Positions 27,706 through 46,600 of a DNA stretch of 64,000 bases are shown in pieces. A program made the position numbers and the translations under genes. Source of the DNA: Pratylenchus scribneri (taxonomy: Eukaryota; Nematoda; Chromadorea; Rhabditida; Pratylenchidae). Positions within the stretch are counted from its first letter, which is position 1. Each line of letters starts with the position of its first letter. A model generated the notes under the pieces. It was not told where the DNA came from, made no database searches, and worked only from the letters and a program-made list of their open reading frames with translations. The stretch is from the NCBI GenBank assembly GCA_030063045.1, contig JAQSEB010000082.1:992001-1056000 (forward strand). Direction: 5' to 3'.

Positions 27706-29259
27706 TCATTCAAACTTTGTTGAGCCGCTGGCCGTGCCCAACTGTGGCCAAATTTGGTTAATGGGCAATTCCAAACAGGCCTGGGTCCGATGCAAAAACT
27801 GGAAGAATGGAGGCAGTTATTAGAGACAAAAATTAATGGAAAATAATTATTGTGAAATCTAAAAGAGATGATGAACCAAAATGGCCATTAATAAATATGA
27901 AAAAGCCTTCAATTCGCTGCCTTTTAATTTATTTGTTTTAGCTTAGATTTAGTCTTATTAGCTTCGGTTAATATATTGGAGTATTTTTTGCCAAAATGCA
28001 AAAGAATCGCCATTAATAAATAGATAAAAGCCTTAGTGCTTAATGGCTTTAGTTTGACATTATTAGGATGTGCCCATCAAGATAACAAAATGAGTTTGGA
28101 CTTGGACCTCAATTTCAGTGGGTACTCCTTCGGGTCCGGCCGAGGCAATGGCTAGCTCGAAAATGTCGCTGGCACAGCCGCGCACAAATGTGAATGGGCG
28201 ACGTTCGTTTTGTACACCTACAAACTCAAATTATTTCATTCCCCAAAATGATTTAATATAAATTAAGGTATTAATGAAGGAATATATGATCCAGGGATTT
28301 AACTAAAGCTAAAACATAGTTCAAGAGCCAAGACATAGATTTGCCTTACCGCCAAAGTATTGAGGCTCCAGCATGGAAATACAAGTAGAGTCGCATGGCA
28401 CCAATGCCGAACTGCTCATTGTGGCCAATTCCAACCGAGAATCACATAAACGATCAAAAATGACGGGGCGGCCGAAAAGGGCTGGGCTATTAGCGCGCAA
28501 AAAGATGGACTTGAATATTTTTTTTTTCGATTTGATTATTTCCAGCAGAGGAGGCGGACTAACCTCGTAATCTTCGGAGGCACAAGAAAAGCAACTGTAA
28601 ATTTAGGGGACAAAGTTTGGCTTGGAATATAATAGAAATGGTAATGAAAGGAATAGTCGGATTCGGGTGTAAACTGTAAATGGAAGGGGCATTGGATTTG
28701 GATTCATTGGGATTCCTTCCTTAAATTCCTTTGAAGGCAATCGGAATTGCTGGAAACAACCCAACTTTATAACTTCACAATTTCTAAACCAATTAAAAAA
28801 TTAATAAAATTTGATAGCCAAAAGTCTGATCTTTAATTTGATACCAAAAACATCAAATACAGTTCTTTATGAGTTATTATAAATGGCGAAAAGTTGGCCG
28901 GAACTAAATTTATTGGCCATACATTGTCCTGTTAATATAATTAATGGAAAAAAGTTAATTTTCGATAAAAAATTACCACTTTCTCCTCCATTTCAATTGG
29001 CCAATTTTCCTTATTGCTTCAATATTCATCCATATTTGCCCTCAATAAATGGGACCTAGCCTAGCCTTCAATTGTTCTATTCTAAGTTCTAACAAAGACT
29101 CGAAAATGTCGTTGGCCAATTTCATTGGATTTATGACCTGATGAATGGATATTCTGGCAAAGGAGATCCGATGATGAATTTTAGGGGCTGGAATATGATA
29201 AAAAGGAGGCAGCAATAGGCGGTCGGTAGCCGGAACAGAAAAAGCAAATCCATGCGCAT
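27706..29259 (-). CDS. Secreted cysteine-rich protein, nematode Ly6/ET-module-like
   Basis: Assembled from five exons (29138-29259, 28564-28594, 28350-28509, 28087-28217, 27706-27798) whose splice phases all match; total 537 nt, 178 residues. The start encodes a hydrophobic signal sequence (MRMDLLFLFRLPTAYCCLLF). Then come cysteines in a pattern of small extracellular domains: SCFSCASEDYE, RLCDSR, LVPCDSTCISM, FVRGCASDIF and a final QACLELP. CxxC near the start and FVRGC near the middle resemble nematode Ly6/uPAR-like or ET-module proteins. No GPI-type hydrophobic tail is visible before the stop. The role is unknown. The long first intron holds half of a second repeat family (28740-28920). 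Neighbouring genes are the GPCR (convergent) and a gene-poor region upstream. Confidence 0.72.
28740..28925. repeat. Dispersed TTTGATAGCCAAAAG repeat, copy 1
   Basis: Shares TTTGATAGCCAAAAGT, CTTTAATTTGATA, ATGAGTTATTATAAATGGCG and AAGTTGG with 60400-60500. It lies in the first intron of the Ly6-like gene. Confidence 0.6.
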
Positions 29260-31685
29260 TTCATTGGTGGCCCATTGTGGAGAATAGAAGAGAGGGAGGA
29301 ATTGGTTAATGGGTTGAATTTAATGGCAAATTTTATGGCTCTGAAACAGTAAATTTTTGATTTAAACTGATTTTGAGGAGCAAATATGGAATAAAATAGG
29401 CAAAGAAGCCTCAGAATTTGGCCTGGTTTGGGCCTCTCTGATTCACGGTGAGGGCCGTTTTGTAGCCGGGTGATTTTGAACCGAGGGTTACTCTTTCCTG
29501 CTGGGGTTCATAATTTGAGAGCCTAAATACCCGTAAATTCTTTAAAAGTGGCCCCGGGGCTATTAATTTTCAGAGAACTTCTAGAGGGGGCTAAAATAGA
29601 GAGGGGGTCGGTCAATAATAAAGAATTTACGGCAGTCCCAATAAGACCAATGGTTCCGAGCCCTAAACCATAAACCTTAATCTTATAGCCCTAAATCCTG
29701 AAGATGGCGCTACATTGGCGGCGTCAAAACGACCTCTGGTCCAAGTGATTCGTTTTTTGATTTATGGGCTTCCTATTATTTAATTTTAATAAGTAGAAAT
29801 CAATGTGAAAAAAAAAGAATTGGCAAACCAATATCGAATGAGGCGAAGCTAAATTTGCCCAAAAAAATGTGTAAAATGTAGGTAAAAATGAATGATTTGT
29901 GGAAAGAAATGAGGCAAAATTCGCGCCACCAAAAGCACCTGCCCCTTTCGTAAATGTCGATGGGAAAATAAAGAGAAAATGGGAGAAGGTCCACTAATTG
30001 AGTTATAGCTGGGAATGGCCAAAAGGGGATGGAATTTGTTTGGTGCGCGAAAGGGGGAAATGGGCGAGGGAAAGGCGCCGGTGGTTGGTGGATGAATTAG
30101 CTGGGAAAATGTGCCGAGAATGGAATTTTGAGTGAGGACATAAAGTGCTCCTTGGCCAATTATTGTAGAGGGGAGAAATGCACTGAAACTAAGAAGAAGG
30201 CGAGGATGGGGACGAAATGGATGCTTATTCGAAAGGAATTGAGGGAAAGTGCCAATAAACTTATGCGCCAAAAGGAGGGAGAATTGTGGGGGCGGAGGGT
30301 AACGAAATTCAATCCAATCCCCCTTTGGGGAATGAATTTTTGAAGGGGCCGCCGATGTGCATTTACCAATTAAGGAGGAAGTGGATTGAACAAATCCAAT
30401 TAATTCAATTCAAAAACAAAAAAAAAATTAGGGTAATATGGAAGAAATGGAAATTGGAAATGGAAGTGAGAATGGATTTAATCAATGCCTTCTCTGGGCA
30501 AATTCATTTAATTTCAGACAGGGATTGTCATAAATTTATTTGCAATACCGTATTTTCTATCAGAAACCCCGACGGAGTTTGTAAATTTCAGCAGAGACCT
30601 TCCAAGAGAGACTTCTAATAGAAATGAGTCTTCTATTAGAAAAATATGTTATTTATTGCTAGAAAGAACTAAAATTTGCCTTTTAAACTTTGATAAATTC
30701 TGCCATTTCTCGAGGCCACAAAAATTGGCCAAATAATGATTTTTGATGGAGAATCCTCACCCGTAAAATAAGTCCTAAATTCATATTGAAAAATGCTTCA
30801 ATTTAGACACAATGCAAAAAAATGGGGGAAGAATGGACATTCAGGACATTTTTGAGCGAATAAAATTGGTGGCGGATGAAAAGCCTTTGAAATAAACAGC
30901 AAATTCATTGAAGAAGGTGATGGGGCATTTAGGCGAATTTTGTGGTCCAAAATGCCGAGGAGGAGCAGCAGAAGAAAAAGAGGTCGATGAAGACAATGAA
31001 ATAGACCAAAGCCAAAAGCGGTTGGAAATTGAGCCGGAAGGAAGTTGGAAAAGTGGGAATTGGGTGCCAAATCCGGCGGTGGTTGGCGGCGGCTTTATGC
31101 CTGGTTGATTTTGAATTGGCCCCCAAATTGGGGGATGTTTTGGCCGAAAAATGGGCGCCAATCAGTGGTGGAAGAAGGCACACAAATGGGGAAGTTCCCA
31201 AAATATGGGGTGGGCATTGTCAATGAAAGAAGAAAGGAAAAATGCCGGCTTCTTGTCGATTCATGTTTAAGTGGAAGGGTGAAAAGCCTTTCTATAGGCT
31301 AAAAAACAAAAATATCCTTTACTCTTCTCAAAAAATGGAAATGCAAAGGCTAGGCTATCGCTGGAAGGGCATTTTGTCCATATGTTTATTTCCTCCATCG
31401 TCCAATTTGGTAATTGCCGTCTCCGCTTTATGACACCATCCATCCACGGCAAGAAAGACACGATTTCTGCACAAAAGAATTCCAAAGGAAGGAAAATAAA
31501 TTGGAAAACGAGTAAAAAAAGGATTACTTAAAGCTTTAAAATCGGGAAAATCACATTAACCAAGAACTGAAAGACATGCTGGTTTTTATACAATCATTAT
31601 TTTTAAAATCATCATTTTTTACATCAAAAGTAATAATTAAATTAATCCAAATTAAATTCATAGAGCAGAGCTGTCTTCAACTTGT
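29260..31685. other. Gene-poor region upstream of the Ly6-like gene
   Basis: About 2.4 kb without an exon I can support on either strand. It should contain the promoter of the Ly6-like gene. G/purine-rich stretches occur at 30000-30330 and 30900-31200. Palindromic TCTATTAGAAA/TTCTAATAGA segments at about 30545-30645 match similar ones at 18155-18225 and 19155-19220. Long frames here translate into low-complexity Pro/Phe- or Gly/Glu-rich sequence and are probably not genes. Confidence 0.4.
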
Positions 31686-32607
31686 ACGTGCCACTTATTT
31701 GTCTCCCAAAATCGACTTATTTTTGCACCAAATTTTTCCCTCTCCCAAAATCGACTTATTTTTGCACCAAATTTTCACCTCTCCCAAAATCGACTTGTTT
31801 TTGCACCAAATTGGGCGGAAATTTGAATTTTCACATTTACTTCCTCTTTTCTCTACTCAAATCTAATACGGAAAAGCTTAATTGTCCCTCAAAATGGGCT
31901 CGAGTCCTGTCTTAGGCTGTTTTTCTTCCGGCTTCGCGAGATTCCAATGCTCCGAGCCCCTAATCCTAAGCCCCTAGCCCCTAAATCCCATGCCGACCAT
32001 AACCCTAAGCCCCTAGCCCCTAAATCCCATGCCGACCATAACCCTAATCCCTAGCCCCTAACTAGACTTATCCGGCTTAATTCCCCTATATCCACCTAAA
32101 TCCCCCTATATCCGGCTAAATCCCGCGCACTTTCCGGGCCTCTATTATACTTCACCGACTTTCTAGTGGCCTTCCCAGCCATTTCCAATCCATTTCTATG
32201 CTTAATCCCCCTATATCCACCTAAATCCCCCTATATCCGGCTAAATCCCGCGCACTTTCCGGGCCTCTATTATACTTCACCGACTTTCTAGTGGCCTTCC
32301 CAGCCATTTCCAATCCATTTCTATGCTTAATCCCCCTATATCCACCTTAATCCCCCTATATCCACATTAATCCCCCTATATCCGGCATAATCCCGAGCAC
32401 CTCCTTTTTGACTTCCGCGTACCCCAGGAATGTCCCAAAATCGTTTTATATTATTTACAACGTGAAAAACAAATTCCCCCGATTTGGTGCAAAAACAAGT
32501 CGATTTTGGGAGAGGTGAAAATTTGGTGCAAAAATAAGTCGATTTTGGGAGAGGGAAAAATTTGGTGCAAAAATAAGTCGATTTTGGGAGACAAATAAGT
32601 TTTTCCG
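31686..32607. mobile_element. Non-autonomous foldback transposon with 9-bp flanking repeats
   Basis: About 920 bp, flanked by TCAACTTGT at 31677-31685 and 32608-32616. Each end carries about 125 bp of inverted repeat, built from three tandem units beginning CCCAAAATCGACTTATTTTT and ending GCACCAAATTT. The interior has two further tandem repeats: a CCCCTAGCCCCTAAATCCCA unit (31960-32060) and a ~120-bp unit (about 32080-32335, two copies) rich in CCCCTATATCC. No transposase is encoded. A 9-bp target duplication and long structured inverted ends suggest a Mutator-like (MULE) derivative; that class is inference. Confidence 0.82.
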
Positions 32608-33067
32608 TCAACTTGTTAATAGGATGTTTAGCTTACTGTAGTTTTAAGAGGTGGTTATTTTAATTTTTGAATTGTTTACCGGAATATTGTAGCCGAAAAA
32701 GAATTGGCGAAATGTATTTTCCGACGCCGACGTCAGAACTCAGAAGTCAGATCAGCACACATCAGAAGCAAACAGCAAGCAGAAAATCGACATTCGAATT
32801 CGAGGGAAAATATTTTTTTGCAGAAAAGAAATGCTTGTTTTGCAGAAAAAAAATATTTTTGACTTCTAATAAAAATCAGGCCCAATTCGTACAATAAATA
32901 CCATAAGAGATCGAATGAAACCGATTTAACCCCAAAATTTTCGGGTGGTTGGCTTGGATAATCGAATCAAATTTTATTTATTAATCATGTTATAATATTT
33001 TAGCGAATATCAAGACTTAAATTTGAAAATTCAACAACAAAACAAGTTCAAAAACATCCTAATAAAA
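32608..33067 (+). promoter_or_regulatory. Upstream region of zinc-knuckle/SUMO gene
   Basis: No gene supported. A less AT-rich patch at 32700-32800 (CCGACGCCGACGTCAGAACT, with AGAAGTCAGATCAGC) may be promoter or 5' UTR. Confidence 0.35.
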
Positions 33068-34265
33068 ATGCAACAAAGTAAGTTGGAAATAAATTCACAT
33101 TGAATTCAATTTGTTCTTAAGATTGCTACAATTGTGGCCAGCCTGGACATCAAGCGCGTGATTGCCAAATGGGCAACCGTATGTTTATAATAATCCTTTT
33201 TATTAAGTCATTTTTTAATTTAGGAAATTGTTACAACTGTGGCGAATATGGTCACTTCTCGCGTGAATGCCCCAGCCCACTCCGTAAATAATTTTTGATT
33301 ATGCGTTCCATTAAAATCAATTTTCAGTCTGCCGCCGATGCCACCAGCCAGGTCACGCTATTGTCGATTGCACAGAAGGCCGCGAAATCCAAAGTTAGTG
33401 GACTTAAAACACTAAAATCTTAATTTTTCAGTTTGCTATCGTTGCAACCAACCAGACCATATTGCTCGATTTTGCCCATTGGGAGGAGGAGGTGGTGGAG
33501 GCAGAGGTGTTGGAGGCGGAGGCGGTGGCCCAAATCGTATGTTTTTAACCTTTATATTCTTAGTAATTTGTTAATTTAGGAGCATGCCACAACTGTGGCG
33601 AACATGGTCATTTCTCGCGGCAATGCCCCAATCCACTCTGTAAATAATTTGATTATGCGTTCCATTAAAATCAAATTTTCAGTTTGCTACCGCTGCCGCC
33701 GACCGGGGCATGTTTCTCGCGATTGCAATGAACAAGGAGGCGGAGGTGATGAGGATGGGCAGCAACTGATGGAGGAGGAGGCGCAGCACCCGATGGAGGA
33801 GGCGGAATACATCAAACTCAAAGTGGTTGGCCAGGTTTGTATTTTTTTGGAATTTTCTTGAATAAATTGATTTTAATTCAGGATTCCAATGAAGTCCATT
33901 TCCGAATGAAATATGGGACCAGCATGGGCAAATTGAAGAAGGCATACGCAGAACGCGCTGGAGTCACGGTTTGTTTTTTCGGTTAAATTCTTAGGATGGG
34001 ACACGAAAATATTCTCATTAAAAAAACTGAGTTTGATTTTCAAAAATTAACTATAGAATTAAATAATCATTTTAGGTCGGTTCGCTACGCTTCCTGTTCG
34101 ATGGACGCCGAGTTAACGACGAGGACACTCCCAAAAGCTTGGAAATGGACGAAGACGATATCATTGAGGTATGTTAAATTTTCAATCAAGAGCACAATTA
34201 ACTAATCAATTCGTTCTCATCTTCAGGTCTACCAAGAACAGCTGGGTGGCAGCGACCAACTCTGA
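33068..34265 (+). CDS. Fusion protein: six CCHC zinc knuckles plus SUMO
   Basis: N-terminal half is CNBP/GIS2-like: six CX2CX4HX4C knuckles ([84 protein letters not shown]), with a Gly-rich linker after the fourth; such proteins bind single-stranded nucleic acid. After an acidic linker ([16 protein letters not shown]) comes a complete [53 protein letters not shown] and VYQEQLGG followed by SDQL and stop. The di-Gly is the processing/conjugation site; four residues would be removed. Knuckle 6 and the first SUMO strand are in one uninterrupted exon (33683-33834). Internal ATGs at 33769 and 33793 could start a free SUMO if a second transcript exists. About 240 residues in all. Confidence 0.88.
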
Positions 34266-34721
34266 TGAATGAAGGCAAAAGAAGAAGGATAAGAACTGCG
34301 ATGATTGGAACGTTGTTGTATTTAAATAGTATTTTGACTTCAAATAAAAATCACATTTGTTTGTTTTATTGTTTATTCTGATTTTTAATTTAATTCTTGA
34401 ATAAAATAATAATTTATTTTAAAAATTTAAATATTTGGTGTTCTGCTGATATTCACGAAAATTATCGATTTTTTTTGAATGAATGACGTTGGATTTTTTG
34501 TGATATGTGTGGAATTGCACTACCAAATTAAGAGATCAATGTCATATATTAATTTTGTTGGAAGTTGGAAGCTTGGAACTAAATGTTTAATCCAATTTTA
34601 AAATTTAAACCCAATCCTCTGCCCCCCACATTCGAATAATTAAATAAAATGAATTTTATAGCAGTAAATTTTGGATTAATAAATTGTGTGAAAAACGAAT
34701 TGCTTTTGAATTTGAGTTTTT
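34266..34721. other. Intergenic region between zinc-knuckle/SUMO and FET genes
   Basis: AT-rich, 456 bp. It contains the SUMO 3' UTR (AATAAA at about 34343) and the upstream region of the FET gene. No gene seen. Confidence 0.5.
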
Positions 34722-37700
34722 ATGTCTACAGCATTACCCGGTAAGTATTTTGATGCTGAACATATTGAAAAAGTCATTCTTTTCAGCAAACTACAACAAT
34801 ACAAATACAACAATGAGTCAACAAGCCCAAGGTGCTGCCTATGATCCACAGGTTTTTTTGGATTCCTTGAAAGTTGGTAAATTACAATTTTTGAAGCTGG
34901 CACAACAGCAATACGAAGCTTGGCAACAATATTATGCACAAGGAGGAGGGCGGGCCGCACAACCCCAGCAAAGTCAACAACCGGGCCAAGAGGTTTTTTG
35001 GTCAAATTGTATTTCAATTTAATTTCGAATTAAGAGTGGCGGAGCATATCGAGCCTATTTTGATCAGTCCAATGCTTCACAACCGGCACCACCTCCACAA
35101 GGTTTTAAGTAGATATTGGAATAGTAATCTCAAAATCATGCTTAAGTTGGTCAGCAACAAGCCTATGGACAATCTGCGCAACAGCCAATTGCAGGCAATT
35201 ATGGTGGTGCCGGTGCACCCGCAATGCCACCACAACAATATGGCGGTGGAGCCGGTGCGGTGCCGCCTCAACCAACAAATCCGTATGGACAAAACCAATA
35301 TTATGGGTGGGTTATTTTTGCTAGTGAATTGAGCGGAGACGGATTTGAAGAAGGTTTATTTTGGGCGTAAATCTGCATATAGAGAACTGTTTTTTAAATC
35401 AAAATTAACAACATAGAATTAATATTCTAATTATTTTTATTTAAGAAATGCGCCCGTTTTCCCTCCTGCGCAACCAAATCCGGCGGCGCAAGGCCGCCCA
35501 CCACCACCGGGAGCATGGTCTGGAGGAGGCGGTGGACCACCACAACGAGGAGGCCCTCCACCATTGAATGCATTCGTCGGTGGACCACCGGGCGGAGGAG
35601 GCTATGGCGGCGGACCGGGAGGAGGTTATGGAGGCGGCGGCGGACCGGGAGGAGGTTATGGAGGCGGCGGCGGAGGAGGCCAATGGGGTGGAGGTGGTGA
35701 TCGCGGTGGAGGACGTCGACCTTATGATCGAGGGTGAGCTAGCAATTTTTTAAATTAAATATAAAATTTGGTACATTAAAAAATGGATTAAAAAATATCC
35801 GTATCCTTATGAGTCAGGGGTTCGATGTTATAACATCCATACATCCGAATCCGAATTTCAAAATGTTATTAGACCTGAATAATTGGTCGTGGTCATCGCG
35901 TTAAGCGCCCAAATGTTAAGAAATCGAGTTTATTTTACACAACAAGTTTTTCCATTTTCCGGTCTGGGTTGTGGGTTTATTTTGGCAATGACTTGGATTA
36001 AGGATTAGCTTACTAAAGTATTTCGAAAATCAGTACCGATGACCTAAAAATGTTGCAAAAGTGAAGGGGGTCCCCCTTTGAGTTGATTTTATTTGGTAAA
36101 GTTCTCTTTAAAAACCATTAATTTACGGATGAAAATAAAAAAATAACACCACTAATCAATCAATTTATCATAAATCACATCATCTCGCCATCATAAATGT
36201 GTCTGTCAAAACAGGAAAATATATGTTATTGTGGTGAAAAGGTAAATGATCACAAATTGTTCAAAGAGTTCAGACAAAAGACAAACAAAACACGAACCAT
36301 CCATTCATCTTTGGTGTGGGGGCTCATCCGAGCCCTCCTCCTCATTCATAATAAATGATTGATTGATTACATTTCGATGATTTGCAGACCCGGTGGCGGT
36401 GAGGGATACCGACCGGGCGGTCAGGCTGGTTACAGAGGTATTTTGTTGGGTAAACTGTGAAAGTGAATTTTGGTCTATAAAAATGGAACTACCCAAAAAT
36501 AGAGCAAATTATGTTCAAACGAATTTTAGAGTATTTATTAATGAGTTTATTGGTCTCAATTCTCCAAATAATAATTAACCATTTGTGATTATTGAAAAGG
36601 GGTAAAATGGTAATTAATTTGCCATCTTTTACGAATATATTTTATACATAAACTGGTTAATAACATTGGTCAAAGTCCAAAAATTAATCGAAATTAATTG
36701 TAAAAAAATAAATAATAAGCCCTAATTTAATATTTCTATCAATTCAAGGTGGAGGCAATGATCGTCGTTCGGGTGGTGGTGGTGGAAGAGACGGAGGCGG
36801 TGGATATTCTCGCAATGATCGAGGCGGCGGTGGAGGCTATGGCGGAGGCAGTGATCAACAATACGAGAGCAAGAACATCCTCTATTTTTCGGGACTTCCT
36901 TTGGAGTGAGTTAAATTTAAACATTAAATATAAGAATATAACCGTAGAAAAATGAATTTTTTCCCAGAAAATATTTTAAAAAGATCTCAAACCTATCCAA
37001 AAATCCTTTATATTATAAATTCATGTTTCAGTGCCAACGAACAATTCATCCACGATGTGTTCAGCATGGAACAGGGCGACGTTGAATCGGGGCCAGATGG
37101 GCGGCCAAAAATCAAAATCTACAAGGATGCTGGCCGACCAAAGGGCGAATGCACAATCACGTTCCGCAATGAAGAAGTGGCCCAACGTGTCATGAGCACT
37201 TATAATGGTTGGTGTGAAAAATTCAAAATTAATAATAAATTAGAATTAAAATAAAAATTAAAATATTTTCATTTCAAGGTCAACCATTTCCTGGCAGCGA
37301 GGGAGTTATGAGCATTTCTGTGGCCAAATTTAGTGGCAACAAAGGAGGAGGAGGGGGTGATGGTCGTGGCGGCGGTGGTCGTCCAATGCGCGATGGAGGT
37401 GGACGAAGCGGCGGAGGAGGAGGTTTTAATTCTTTTTAATGTAAATTTATATACAAATAATTTAAGGATATGGAGGCGGAGGAGGCCGTGACTACGGTGG
37501 TGGGGGAGGCCGTGATGGCGGTGGTAGAGGTGGCGGAGGGCGCGGACCACCGGGACGCGATGGAGGTAAGCAAAAATTTGAATTTTTGGCAAATATTCCT
37601 CAAAATTCCAATCTTCTCACAGGTGGTCGTGGCGGTGGTGGAAGAGGAGGCGAACGTCAAGGCGGCGGCGGTGGTGGAAGAAAGGGCCTGGAAATACGCA

Positions 37701-38088
37701 AAGGAGACTGGACTTGCCCGTATGCATTCTTCACAAATTTTATTCATTAATTCTAATCAATTTTTTGTAGATGTGGAAATGTCAATTTCGCCTTCCGTCG
37801 TGAATGCAATTCCTGCAAGGCTCCAAAAGGACAAGATGGAGGCGGCGGTGGATATGGGGGCGGTGGGCCAGGAGGACCAATGGGTGGCGGATATTATCAA
37901 GGAGGACCACCCCAGGGACCATATGGTAAATATTATTGTTATAAAACTTAATTTTAAGCCAATAATAAATAAAATTAACCTATTAAAAATTTAATTTAAA
38001 AATTTCAGGAGGAGGCGGTGGTGGACCAATGCGCGGCTATGGGGGAGGTGGCGGATATGGTGGCCCCGATCATTCTCGTCCATACTGA
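34722..38088 (+). CDS. fust-1: FET-family RNA-binding protein (FUS/EWS/TAF15 type)
   Basis: Nuclear RNA-binding protein of transcription and splicing. The order is that of FUS: Gln/Tyr/Gly-rich low-complexity N-terminus ([17 protein letters not shown]..., [12 protein letters not shown]), RGG-rich stretch, one RRM ([20 protein letters not shown] ... [15 protein letters not shown] ... [16 protein letters not shown] ... MSISVAKF), second RGG stretch, RanBP2-type zinc finger ([24 protein letters not shown], four cysteines) and a third Gly-rich tail ending GPDHSRPY, a PY-type nuclear localisation signal. The short first exon encodes MSTALPG. The introns at about 35735-36387 and 36439-36748 are unusually long for this window and may take part in autoregulation, as known for FUS; that is inference. 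Confidence 0.92.
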
Positions 38089-38759
38089 TTCGTGCGGATT
38101 AACAACAATCAATGATAAAGAGTGAAGGATGCTTTTGATGAAATAATATTTTTGTATTTCATTTCTGTTCTATGTTAATTTTATTTTTATAATCACACAA
38201 ACATTCTCCATTCTCCCGCAATTGTGTCGTGATTTGTCATTTCCAAAACACATTTTCATCTTTTATATTATAATATTTTTCGATATTATTATTATTTAAA
38301 TGTAGTCTTATCTTAATTAATTTTGATTTTTTGGGATAAAAAATTTTTAAATTTTAATATTCAACTCCATTTCGAGGAAATCATATTAAACTAAAAACAA
38401 TAAAAAAATAAGATGGATTAATTCGGCCATACTCCTTCTTTCCCTTCCTCTTAATCTCCCCCAATATTATATCATAGCTGCTGTAATCGTTAAAATTGAT
38501 GGGGTGCTCAAGAATATGCTTATAACGAGTCCTTGCTTTTATGCATATTTATTAGGGCCTCATATGTCTTCATGGATATTTATTAGGCATAAAATAATAT
38601 TAAAATAATATTCTGCTGTTGAGATTTATCATTTATTTAATGTTGTTGTAGAATTAAAATATTTGTAAACATGGAATGAGTTATGCAAATGCAACAAATA
38701 AATAAATACAATATATTTGCTTGTTAATCTTCTTTCGTCTTCATTCATCGGTGCGAGGG
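38089..38759. other. Intergenic region, convergent 3' ends of FET and PPP2R3C genes
   Basis: AT-rich, with several ATATTATTATT runs. Expected to hold both 3' UTRs. No gene supported. Confidence 0.5.
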
Positions 38760-41415
38760 TTATTCAGATTTTCTTCCTTCCTCAAAGGCTTCATCCTGTG
38801 AAGATGATGGCGGATCCTCGTCGAAGAATGGGGGCATTTCGGAATCCTTCAAAATGGATAAAAATTGTAAGAAAATTAAATATAAATACCTGTTCAAGTC
38901 CTCCGTTTTCCTGGTCCCTTGTTTCGTAGCGATAAAATTCCGTATGACTTATCAGGCAGAGCACAAAATCATGGCCTTGTTTGCATTTGAGCAGTTCATT
39001 GAATGTTATCCTGAATTTGCAAAGAATGTTTTATGATATAAGATGGTGCAATATTAGGCTAAAAAAAGAATAAAATATTATTCACAATCGCAAATAAGAA
39101 TTATAATTCAGAATTACAAAATCAGAATTTTACAATTACAATCGCAAATCAGAATTACAATTACAATCGCAAATCAGAATTACAATTACAAATCAGAATT
39201 ACAATTACAAATCAGAATTACAATTTACAATTACAAATCAGAATTACAATTACAATCGCAAATCAGAATTACAATTACAATCGCAAATCAGAATTACAAA
39301 TTACAATTACAATCGCAAATCAGAATTACAATTACAATCGCAAATCAGAATTACAATTACAAATCAGAATTACAATTACAATCGCAAATCAGAATTACAA
39401 TTACAATCGCAAATCAGAATTACAAATTACAATTACAATCGCAAATCAGAATTACAATTACAATCGCAAATCAGAATTACAATTACAAATCAGAATTACA
39501 ATTACAATCGCAAATCAGAATTACAATTACAATCGCAAATCAGAATTACAATTACAATCGCAAATCAGAATTACAATTACAATCGCAAATCAGAATTACA
39601 ATTACAATCGCAAATCAGAATTACAATTACAATCGCAAATCAGAATTACAATTACAATCGCAAATCAGAATTACAATTACAATCGCAAATCAGAATTACA
39701 ATTACAATCGCAAATCAGAATTACAATTACAATCGCAAATCAGAATTTTACAATTACAATCGCAAATCAGAATTACAATTACAATCGCAAATCAGAATTA
39801 CAATTACAATCGCAAATCAGAATTACAATTACAATCGCAAATCAGAATTACAATTACAAATCGAAATCCTAAATTGCAATCCAAATCAATTCAAAATATT
39901 TAATATTTAAAAAAATTGTTGTTTTTATGTTCCATTCCCACTTACTTTCCATTGTCCACCGGTTTAACCATGTCAAAAAATTGATCGGCAAAATCATCGA
40001 ATTCCGGCATTGCCCCATCCATGAACCAAGAATTATAGGCCAATCGCAATTCCCCATAGAAATAGTACAGCTCATGCCGGGTGATTAATCCATTGCCGTC
40101 CACATCGAGTATTTTGAAGAAATAGGCCAACGAGGATGGATGCTAAATGTCAATTGGTTTTAATGGATTTAAGAGAAAAGCAAACCGCCAAATGATTGAA
40201 GGCAATTTGGAATTGGACAAACTCTTCGTAGCACATCATTTTGCCACCATTATGGACGTGAATTTCGAAGAGACGTTCAACAAATGTGGAAGTGAATGCG
40301 CCATTTTGAATTCGTTGAAAGTCCTCTATTGTCAAGTAGTTTTTCTGATCCGTATCATAGATTTGGAAGAAGCCATTTTGCTCATGTGTCTTTTCCGGAG
40401 AAAACCTTAAGATTTGAAATTTTAACAAAAATTGTAGAAAAAATTACACTAACCAATTTTCGAAATCCTCATGGTTGACTTGCAGTCCGAATGCATTCTC
40501 CAAAAAGCCGCAAACAATGGCGTCGTTTATCCGAATCCGACCAATGTGTTTTGGGTCAAGGAAGAAGAAGAACATCGTCTCCACTGTGTTCATATAGCAA
40601 ATTTCGAATGTTTCCTGCAGTTTTTGGGTTATTATTTGTATTTAATCTGATAAGACCTCCAAATCACGAAGAACATCGACTTTGGGGATGACCTCGTTTC
40701 GGTAATATGCCGAAAATTGCTAAAAATTATAAAGAAAATTATTAATGATGAGCGTAAGACTACCTCTCTGGTCAAACTGCCCAATCCATCCTCATCATAT
40801 TTGGCCATGTTGAGTCGATTACGGAAAAATGCAGTTTTATTGGTGACATAGTCCTGGAGTGCCTCAACCGTAATTTTTGGATTTGATGGTTTTTGTTGAA
40901 TTTGGTGGGCTCGAAAGAATGTTGCGGGTAAAATAAAATTCATCAGACGTTTTGGAAGTCGTTTCCGGAGAGCCTAAGAACCAAATAAATTTAGCGATTT
41001 AATAAAAATTTAATTTGGGTTACCATAAATTGGTTGAATTTGATTGTTTTCTGTTCGCCATCTTCAGTTTCGGACTCTGATGCGCGGCCCAATAATTCTT
41101 CGAATTTCTTAAATAATTTAATTTTTAGTCTGATTTCTAATCAAATTAAACCTTTAAATCTTCTTCCGTCGGCAACTTTTCCTTCTCCAGTTCAAAGGCA
41201 ATTCGGTAAGAAAGTTTCCTAATTCGTTCTGAGAGCAAATTTTTTCGGTGAATTTGTTGGAAGAAATTTGGCTCCTCTCCATTGCAATCATTCAAAATGC
41301 TTTTGTATTTTTGAGCATTTGACAATTCAATTGGATCATCAATGTTCAATGCATCCGGAAATTTGGCCAAATATTCATCCAAATATGCGGCAATTTTTGT
41401 CGATTTTTTAGTCAT
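38760..41415 (-). CDS. PP2A regulatory subunit B'' gamma (PPP2R3C/G5PR type)
   Basis: EF-hand regulatory subunit that targets protein phosphatase 2A, found at centrosomes and nucleus in animals. It starts MTKKSTKIAAYLDEYLAKF, with an ATTTTAG acceptor just upstream of the ATG. Family blocks: KFNQFM, MNTVETMFFFFLDPKHIGRI, WFSPEKT, a degenerate EF hand YDTDQKNYLTIEDF, a canonical one (DVDGNGLITRHE) and DQFFDMVKP. The joint VDNGK|ITFNELLKC spans intron 39019-39944, which is filled by minisatellite array 4. The last exons give TEFYRYETRDQENGG and an acidic end (DEDPPSSSQDEAFEEG), stop at 38760. It is the last gene of the minus-strand row starting at DnaJ-A, 358 bp after CAML. Confidence 0.9.
39083..39868 (-). 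repeat. 25-bp minisatellite array 4 (PPP2R3C intron)
   Basis: The longest array, about 785 bp, reverse-complement of the others on the plus strand (units contain TACAATCGCAAATCAGAATT). Near 39180-39500 several units are 19 bp or have an extra base; from 39520 onward nearly all are perfect 25-mers. It fills the penultimate PPP2R3C intron in the same sense relative to the gene as array 1 in HDAC. Confidence 0.97.
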
Positions 41416-43397: not shown

Positions 43398-43652
43398 TTT
43401 TGTCAGTTGGCTTAAATAAAATTAATTAAAAGTTTAAAAGTGCATAAATAATTCATAAATATTTGATTGAACAAAACATTCATATAAATTTTCAATAAAT
43501 AAAATTAAATAATTTTAATAAGTGAAATTAAAAGAAAAAATATTGGATTATCGCTGATGGGCAAAAATTCATCATAAATAAAAATGAGATAATTAAATTA
43601 AAATAATTGTGGGAGATCAAAATTGGATAAATAAAAGTGGAATAATGCCATC

Positions 43653-46600
43653 TCAATGATTGTTTTCGGTTCGTGTAATCGATGAGCGTCCATCCTTGAA
43701 TTGCACTCGATAAACAACATTTGCATTGTCGAAAAAGCCTTGTTTCAACGAAACAACAATAAACTAAAAAGAAAATATTATAAATTAAATCTAACATTTT
43801 TATGAAACTTACTTGGCTTTGACTGAAATGATTTTTGATCATTTTTCCGATATTTTCCGTATGCGACATGTCCAAAGCGGCATCGATTTCATCGAGAATG
43901 TAGAAAGGCGCTGGTTTGAATTTTAACATTGCCAGAATGAGTGAAAGAGCCACAAGTGAACGCTGCCCTCCGGACAATTCGCTCAATGAATCCTAAATAA
44001 AAATATATTTAATGCGAATTAAATACAAAAAAACCTTATATTTTCCATTAAATGCCACTCGAACTTCCAATCCATTAAGGCAATCCTCCTGCCCGTTTGG
44101 TGGAAGCAATTCGGCACTTGCGCCCGGCAAAAGTGTTGAATAAATTGCACAAAAATCAGTGCTGATTTGTTTGTGTGCCGCAATAAGTTCACGTTTCTTC
44201 TTCACATCCAGCTGTTCAATTGAATCCAATAATTGTTTTCTGTCCCTTGCCAGCTTAAAATTCAAACATATTTTCATAAAAATTTCCTTTTTTTTCTTAC
44301 TTGAGCATGTTTAATCTCCAATTGTTGGCATTGTTCTTCGGCGGTGTTCAACAATTTAATTGCTCTAAATTTTTAAAAATAGGTAATATTAGAATTTTGT
44401 AATTTATTTTTTGGTTAAATGGCAGTATTTCGTCTAGAAATATATGGTAGAATGTATAAAAGTGTGTACCATGCTTTAAAAAATTATTGGACTCTGAGTG
44501 GGTTCGAACCCGAGACCTAAAATTTTGCAAAACTGAAAGGTTTAACATATGTACCAAAAGTTTTTTTTTCTAAGCAATATCTTTTCATTAATCTTAGCCA
44601 ACTTAAAAACTAACCCTAAACCTAAATTAATCTATTCCATTCAACTTACTTGGTATTCACTGTTTGAAGCAATTCCTTGGTTCGATCTCGGCGTGTTTCC
44701 ACCTCTCTTTTGCCAATTTCAAAATTGTAATTGCTAAAATCGTAAGCACCGCCAGCGTTGCCAAATGTGTTCTTCTCCTCTGCGATCCATCGATGCGTTT
44801 TTTCTAGTTGTTGGGCCTAAAATTTAGTGTTAATTTATCGATATTTTAAAAAAATTTTTTACTCTTTTTGCAAATTCATGTGAATTTTTTTCGTATTCCT
44901 GTGCATCTTTTTCCTTCGATTGTTGTTTATTTTCCAGTTGGCGCTTTCTCTTCTTCATATCTTCAATTTCGGCCATTTTCGTTCGGATCGCTTTGTCCTT
45001 TTGTCGAATTTCCTTATTAAATTTGTCCATTTTTTGTTGGGATGCATTCACTCTCTCCTAAACAAATATTAAATAAATTAATTATTAATTTTAATTAATT
45101 TCCATACATTTGCTTCGCGAACATTTTCATTGAATTGATTTAGGTCCGCTTGCTTCTCTTCCTTCTGCTTTGACATTTTTTCCAATTCCTCTTCATCTTC
45201 ACGAATTGAAGTTTGCATTGATGCAATTTCCTCTCTTAAAAATGAAATGAATTATTAATAAATTCATTTTTAATTTTCAAAAATTACCTTAAGCTAGCCA
45301 ACACTTCTTTAGCATTGGCAAATGTGTTCTTCAATTTGTCCAACTCTTTTTGGGCATTCGCCAATTCCTTTTGTGCACTCTTTTTCTCATTTTCTTGATA
45401 ATTTCCATCTTTCTGCTGAATTTCCAGTGCTTTCACTTTCTTCGTCAATGTTTCAATTTCGGGTTGATCATTTTGGATTAATTCATTCCCTTCGGCGATT
45501 TCCCGTTCCATTTGTTCAATTTCGGCACGGATCACCTCCACTGGGCTCATTTTCAATTTTGTTTTCACTGAATCCAAACGCTTCTTCCTCTCCACCAATT
45601 TATTGTTTAAATCATCAAATTTGAGGCCAATTTGTCGTTTTGTAACCAATTCAGCTGAAAATTTAAAAAATATTTTCGTTGATAGTATATTTAATTAATT
45701 TAGCGAAAAAAATTGAAAATGGCGAAAGTTAAAAAACTATTGAAAATGGTGTGAATATTATAACGGTTTAATGGTTTTTCCTAGACCCCCAAATCTTTTA
45801 GCCTAGGATAGCAGATAGCTGAAACATTACATTTTTATGCCACATTCATTTGCCAAATTAAATATTTTCTACTAAATAAATTACCATTGATTTCATCCAA
45901 TCGCTGGTTGATGGCCTCAACGCGAGCATATTTGCCGGACAATTCATGAATTGACTTCAATACGGACGCCTTTGCCGTTCGCGAACCGCCAGTCATTGTG
46001 CCCCGTGGATTGTAGTCTTCCCCACTCATTGTTACGGTTCGACAGGCGTGTTGATTTTCATAGGTGAGCACTTTGGCTTGTTCCATGGTTTCACAAATCT
46101 TCAAAACAATAAATTATTTTAATAAATTAAAATAATACCAATAAATTAAAATAATACCAAAGAATTTCCGAAAACATAATCAACAATTGGCTTCAACTCC
46201 GGTTCATAATCAATGAGTTGGCTGGGCACATAAACATTTTCGGCGCCAATCAACTTTTTTGCCTCATCAATATGTTTCTTTGTGATTGCCGATCGACCAT
46301 CAATTTTGTCCAACGGTAAGAATGTGACACGGTTTTGGAGGCATTTGTTGTTCAAAAGAATTTTGGCTGTCTCCGCTTTGTCCACTACAATGTTGTAAAT
46401 CTTAAATTTATAATTAAATTAATAATAAATTTTATTTGTTTTTACTCTTCCGCCGCCGACAATTTCCAGCGCAGTTGCAAATTTTGGATCTTTCAGCTTG
46501 AAAAGGCGCACAACCAACCCTTTCACTTTGCTTTTATCAAAGCCAGGATAGGGATCCTTGTAGTTGAATTGTAAATTGAAATAACTGTTAAATATTTTTG

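Follow-up and report, generated by a model that had tools for sequence, protein, structure and literature searches.

Does the gene at positions 33068-34265 encode a single polypeptide in which a six-knuckle CCHC protein is joined to a complete SUMO domain and, if so, what might such a protein do? The window analysed is a stretch of 64,000 nucleotides from the Pratylenchus scribneri assembly GCA_030063045.1 (contig JAQSEB010000082.1, here C82), and positions are those of the window unless another contig is named.

Structure of the fusion gene and of its second copy

When splicing was modelled by GT..AG borders, the gene resolved into ten plus-strand exons that together comprise 729 nt, equivalent to 242 codons and a stop, with the borders present in all nine introns. 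Exon 1 (33068..33077) provides the start codon and the residues MQQ. Knuckles 1, 2, and 3 are encoded singly by exons 2 (33122..33178), 3 (33224..33283), and 4 (33328..33393), respectively, followed by knuckle 4 with a glycine-rich spacer in exon 5 (33432..33536) and knuckle 5 in exon 6 (33580..33639). Exon 7 (33683..33834) is the junction exon: knuckle 6 and the first SUMO strand, YIKLKVVGQ, both lie within it, separated by a linker of 27 residues (33727..33807, residues 135-161) that was delimited from the exon 7 frame. The remainder of SUMO occupies exons 8 (33882..33968), 9 (34076..34168), and 10 (34227..34265), the last of which specifies the C-terminus VYQEQLGG, the residues SDQL and the stop codon. 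A candidate polyadenylation signal, AATAAA, is located on the same strand at 34343..34348.

The six C-x2-C-x4-H-x4-C knuckles start at residues 5, 25, 44, 66, 102, and 121, and the SUMO core begins at residue 162. The lengths of exons 2-6 are multiples of three and, if all five were skipped, knuckle 6 and SUMO would still be in frame. The head is internally duplicated: 33175-33377 and 33533-33700 are ~80% identical and correspond to a knuckle pair with its introns. Upstream of the gene, a candidate 3′ splice acceptor on the plus strand, AATATTTTAG, ends at 33003, 64 nt ahead of the ATG, and is among four YAG sites in 32801-33067. It is possibly a trans-splice site. The corresponding 5′ region of the second copy described below reads TTATTCAG. 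An Rfam scan of window positions 28000-40000 produced no matches.

The predicted fusion protein matched four Pfam families, namely zf-CCHC (2.4e-36), Rad60-SLD (2.8e-15), ubiquitin (1.1e-12), and zf-CCHC_2 (2.3e-6). Among the best 60 of the 163 PDB matches to the SUMO half, the top two were 4bkg_A (7.2e-45), a chain that contains two SUMO stretches, and 5xqm_A (2.4e-40, 77 aligned residues), which we take to be C. elegans SUMO. The head matched 18 PDB chains, mainly of Gag or nucleocapsid proteins, but also AIR2 and the terminal uridylyltransferases 4 and 7. Thus, profiles and close sequence matches both identify the C-terminal half as a SUMO domain, and the head has the tandem CCHC knuckles of CNBP/GIS2 proteins. 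Proteins of the latter family bind single-stranded nucleic acid, and by family resemblance the fusion head is predicted to do likewise.

A protein search of the same assembly revealed a second fused locus on the minus strand of contig C34 (851796-852959). This copy has 241 codons after removal of one codon by which the automatic model opened ahead of the ATG. It retains the identical ten-exon layout and a linker of equal length, has no frame break, and starts with MQN where the window gene has MQQN. The two regions are colinear over >3 kb at ~91% DNA identity and may represent homeologs or alleles. For the P. scribneri draft genome, k-mers were reported to fit a diploid model, and 41.4% of BUSCOs were duplicated once haplotigs had been purged (PMC10138993).

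As the C34 copy keeps exon layout and frame at ~9% DNA difference, an assembly error is unlikely. More generally, that the fusion is an artefact of assembly or of gene modelling is scarcely credible, given two contigs with the same structure, GT..AG borders in nine of nine introns, and an exact frame. The genomic data therefore confirm that 33068-34265 is a real, and unusual, in-frame joining of two known families. The preliminary description had claimed that the fusion lies in one uninterrupted exon with no missed gene boundary, and that SUMO ends in GG plus four removable residues. The first claim is borne out by the lack of a stop at the junction, by the second intact copy, and by the patterns of change between copies considered below, and the second by the terminal GG-SDQL.

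Other features were recorded in the vicinity. The next gene downstream, from ~34715 on the plus strand and ~460 bases away, encodes a Q/G-rich protein. A piece of this gene at 36934-37251 resembles an RRM (RRM_1, 20.3 bits against a cut-off of 20.7), and presumably it may be an RNA-binding protein of FET/FUS type. This gene and the fusion might lie in one operon. On the other side, the 922 bases of window positions 31686-32607 are missing from the colinear C34 copy and bear short inverted repeats, CTCCCAAAATCGACTT, near both ends; this segment is probably a mobile-element insertion. Positions 39058-39907 are repetitive, with all three plus-strand frames open for 267-281 codons that specify repeating peptides. 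A C-terminal piece of an SMC ATPase (SMC_N, 8.3e-22) is located on the minus strand at 43531-43992.

Free SUMO genes, unfused knuckle loci and database relatives

The SUMO half matched 25 exons in 15 places of the assembly, ten strong and five weak. All ten strong places are complete SUMO domains, two of them fused and eight free. The free genes fall into one family with the tail LGGS(G or N)EFSDE, on contigs C39 (two) and C50 (two), and a second family with the tail LGGGSDQF, on C42, C20, C46, and C11. All eight possess their own ATG, situated 1 to 12 codons past an in-frame stop, and no knuckle matches at E <1e-4 were detected in their ~3-kb loci. Three intron places and phases are common to the two fused and eight free genes. 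When the SUMO coding sequences of all ten genes were placed in a tree, the two fused genes separated from the eight free ones with support of 100; as the tree is unrooted, it does not give the order of origin. The search for a free SUMO gene elsewhere in the genome that the preliminary description had proposed thus uncovered eight ordinary ones, which rules out the fusion as the sole SUMO of this genome.

Among the weak places, three were modelled and scored 83 to 130, compared to at least 346 for the strong ten. Two loci, L006 (G000:C34:78472-81564) and L033 (G000:C262:77912-81028), contain in automatic splicing models distant SUMO-like frames that end in DDDLIDVVQDQHGGMMK and DSIDVVEIQFGG, respectively, followed by a stop. 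Both are possible diverged SUMO paralogues that likewise end at or near GG. A SUMO-like exon in L001 (G000 C141), KFIFDSFPLKDTDTPLSAEMEDDDAIDVYQERL, is without GG, and similar exon matches occur in L002 (C34 near 1.955 Mb) and L003 (C155). Exons of the L001 type are perhaps, we presume, of RENi/NIP45 type.

CNBP-type loci with at least two exon matches were found in eight clusters, on C2, C76, C37, C1, C11, C49, C33, and C91, and six further single-exon matches were noted elsewhere; as these are counts of exon clusters and not of full gene models, they are minimum values. No SUMO place lies at any of these eight clusters. Knuckles of the unfused loci L045, L049, and L050, e.g., CYRCNQPGHISRDC, are similar to those of the fusion's head, and no SUMO motif emerged when these three loci were searched as text. 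As the genome has eight free SUMO genes, and no fewer than eight CNBP-type loci that are not fused, the fusion is an addition to both sets.

Absence of lysine from the head was considered, and rejected, as a sign of selection. The head of the window gene has no lysine in 161 residues and that of the C34 copy one in 160. CNBP-like database matches with at least four knuckles (25 of 41, the other 16 having been dropped) average 4.1 lysines per 100 residues, a rate at which zero lysines in 130 residues has a probability of 0.004. Nevertheless, little weight can be placed on this feature because 2 of the 25 relatives and the knuckle cores of L045, L049, and L050 also are without lysine.

Relatives were sought in protein databases with the full fusion (264 matches, best 120 examined), the knuckle region (41 matches, all examined), and the linker with SUMO (485 matches, best 120 examined). 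Candidates were restricted to 0.55 to 1.75 times the query length, and intron-containing genes often are absent from metagenome proteins. Among the 232 different proteins listed, Pfam assignments placed none in both a knuckle and a SUMO or ubiquitin family, and the same fusion was not found in another species. A looser text filter on the same 232 proteins, assessed by eye and with Pfam, yielded only knuckle proteins without SUMO. The 120 listed matches to the full fusion included no CCHC knuckle motif. The matches listed for the linker with SUMO included free SUMO proteins from Meloidogyne graminicola, M. hapla, M. enterolobii, Heterodera schachtii, and Ditylenchus. Among the titles listed from the open-licence literature, none reported this fusion.

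Signs of constraint on the joined frame and possible roles of the protein

Over the whole coding sequence the two copies differ by 15.8 synonymous changes in 157.3 sites and 22.2 nonsynonymous changes in 565.7 sites, a dN/dS of ~0.37 (Fisher p 0.007 for the contrast, with counts rounded to 15 and 22). The knuckles show a dN of 0.044 and a dS of 0.161, and the linker has five nonsynonymous and no synonymous changes. In the SUMO half, dN is 0.021 and dS 0.06 (4.0/180.8 and 3.0/50.2 sites, respectively), a contrast that is not significant for this half alone (p 0.17). Aligned intron bases differ at 17 of 431 positions (3.9%), with 11 of the 17 in intron 8; as this value is close to the dN of 0.040, the argument from substitutions is weakened. 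Lengths differ in seven of the nine introns, whereas the coding sequence contains one 3-nt difference and no frame-breaking indel in 726 aligned bases. The Poisson probability of one or fewer coding length changes at the intron rate is 1e-4, in a test that is rough as short introns may carry constraints of their own. Taken together, the indels and substitutions suggest that the joined frame is under constraint.

These values bear on the view that the gene is a recent chimera with no special function, translated or not, which has drifted since its duplication. Consistent with drift are the dN/dS of 0.37, the similarity of dN to intron divergence, the lack of significance of the SUMO half taken alone, the finding of two copies only, and the many duplicated genes of the assembly (41.4% of BUSCOs, in the excerpt of PMC10138993). 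The 726 coding bases free of frame-breaking indels, set against seven of nine introns that differ in length, and the synonymous/nonsynonymous contrast argue otherwise, and we regard drift of this sort as improbable.

The fused SUMO half differs from the free gene A_C50a by 10/50.5 synonymous and 4/180.5 nonsynonymous sites (p 5e-5), a comparison that also covers time predating the fusion. The dN between fused and free SUMOs is 0.022-0.046, compared to 0.006-0.017 between the two free families. This greater protein change in the fused SUMO is compatible with a SUMO that is never conjugated, but serves as a permanent domain through which the knuckle protein makes contacts of SUMO type. Such a built-in surface has a precedent in RENi proteins, whose SUMO-like domains are proposed, in an excerpt of PMC549199, to be stable mimics of SUMO. 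Against it, the RENi domains as described there are without a C-terminal GG, and the fusion keeps GG and tail in both copies. The built-in surface, the main rival of the reading that we favour below, is thus somewhat unlikely.

The preliminary description had raised two routes to free SUMO. One was a carrier from which SUMO is released. The maturation cut of SUMO falls after GG; as SUMO is the C-terminal part of the fusion, this cut would take off SDQL alone and leave the head in place. The carrier proposal therefore fits poorly. The other was initiation at internal ATGs. Exon 7 of the window gene does have in-frame ATGs at 33769 and 33793, and to that extent the proposal holds, but four out-of-frame ATGs (33710, 33728, 33749, and 33755) precede them. 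In the C34 copy both in-frame sites are GTG and the two ATGs of exon 7 are out of frame, by which internal initiation was rejected as a conserved route. Moreover, exon 7 contains 13 AGs, each with 0 to 3 T among the 12 bases ahead of it, unlike the T-rich acceptors of the fusion gene. A scan for one acceptor-like pattern returned 8 matches where 5.0 were expected, and was uninformative. Given also the eight free SUMO genes already present, it is very unlikely that the locus acts as a second source of ordinary SUMO, either by a start at 33769 or 33793 or by proteolytic removal of the head.

The reading that we favour, with a probability of roughly 0.5, is that the chimeric gene encodes a conjugatable SUMO that is extended at its N-terminus by a nucleic-acid-binding head. 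The two intact copies, the conserved exon layout, the retained GG and short tail, the introns shared with the free SUMO genes, the frame that survives skipping of exons 2-6, and the indel and substitution contrasts given above support this reading. Against it weigh the greater protein change of the fused SUMO, the purely nonsynonymous changes of the linker, the closeness of dN to intron divergence, the lack of significance of the SUMO half taken alone, and the finding of the fusion in no other species among the proteins listed; retention of GG may also be a mere effect of low divergence. A duplicated knuckle gene of CNBP/GIS2 type would have become joined, at a point within one exon, to a SUMO gene that was likewise a duplicate and had lost its start, and a single polypeptide would be made. 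A SUMO protease (ULP/SENP) would trim SDQL to expose GG, and the ordinary E1/UBC9 machinery then would attach the whole chain to targets. A target would gain SUMO and, tethered by a flexible linker, a head that binds nucleic acid; alternatively, such binding by the head would steer where the fused SUMO is attached, with general sumoylation left to the free SUMOs. That this SUMO isoform would carry in its six knuckles an RNA or ssDNA address of its own, which directs sumoylation or is delivered by it, is a plausible, but more tentative, extension. In C. elegans, SMO-1 tagged N-terminally with AID/FLAG at its own locus supported wild-type vulval morphology, and homozygotes of the tagged strain were sterile, according to an excerpt of PMC9203017. 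The wild-type vulva indicates that an N-terminal head alone does not block the use of SUMO, the sterility speaks against the favoured reading, and such a head may be tolerable in P. scribneri because eight free SUMO genes exist. The preference for conjugation over a built-in surface is a matter of judgement and was not computed. Were the chain to be conjugated, it would act as a modifier that delivers a module for nucleic-acid binding to its target; should it not be, the gene is still a clear exon-internal fusion that creates a new protein of the SUMO pathway.

Comparison with known systems

The fusion resembles SUMO/SMO-1 in its complete domain, the sequence YQEQLGG and the short tail after GG, with LGG-SDQL in both copies, and has its three SUMO introns in common with the genome's free SUMO genes. 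Unlike free single-domain precursors, which have a short N-terminal tail, its SUMO is preceded by 161 residues with six zinc knuckles. The head is similar to CNBP/GIS2 proteins in its tandem C-x2-C-x4-H-x4-C knuckles, one per exon, with a glycine-rich spacer, and in its likeness to the unfused CNBP-type loci of this assembly. It departs from them in its internal duplication and in a C-terminus that continues into SUMO, a ubiquitin-like domain that such proteins are not known to carry behind their knuckles.

In UBA52 and RPS27A, N-terminal ubiquitin is fused to a ribosomal protein and a cut after GG frees both halves. There, as here, a modifier gene is joined in frame to that for a zinc-binding, RNA-associated protein. 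The order is reversed in the fusion, with the modifier at the C-terminus, and a cut after GG therefore cannot free both halves, which sets the gene apart from ubiquitin carriers. RBBP6, as described in an excerpt of PMC1360078, likewise combines a ubiquitin-like domain, DWNN, and a zinc knuckle in a single chain. In RBBP6 an N-terminal DWNN is accompanied by a knuckle and a RING, and no DWNN or RING was present among the four Pfam families matched by the fusion protein.

The RENi proteins Rad60, Esc2, and NIP45 likewise are larger proteins that terminate in SUMO-type folds (excerpt of PMC549199). As portrayed in that source, they typically have two SUMO-like domains without GG, whereas the fusion has a single SUMO, close to the standard form and complete with GG and a tail, and does not belong with them. 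The same excerpt divides ubiquitin-like proteins into those that are conjugated and possess a C-terminal double glycine, and those that are unconjugated, usually multi-domain, and without it (PMC549199). The fusion gene, with its sizeable separate head and a GG end that appears intact, bears the marks of both classes as they are defined there.
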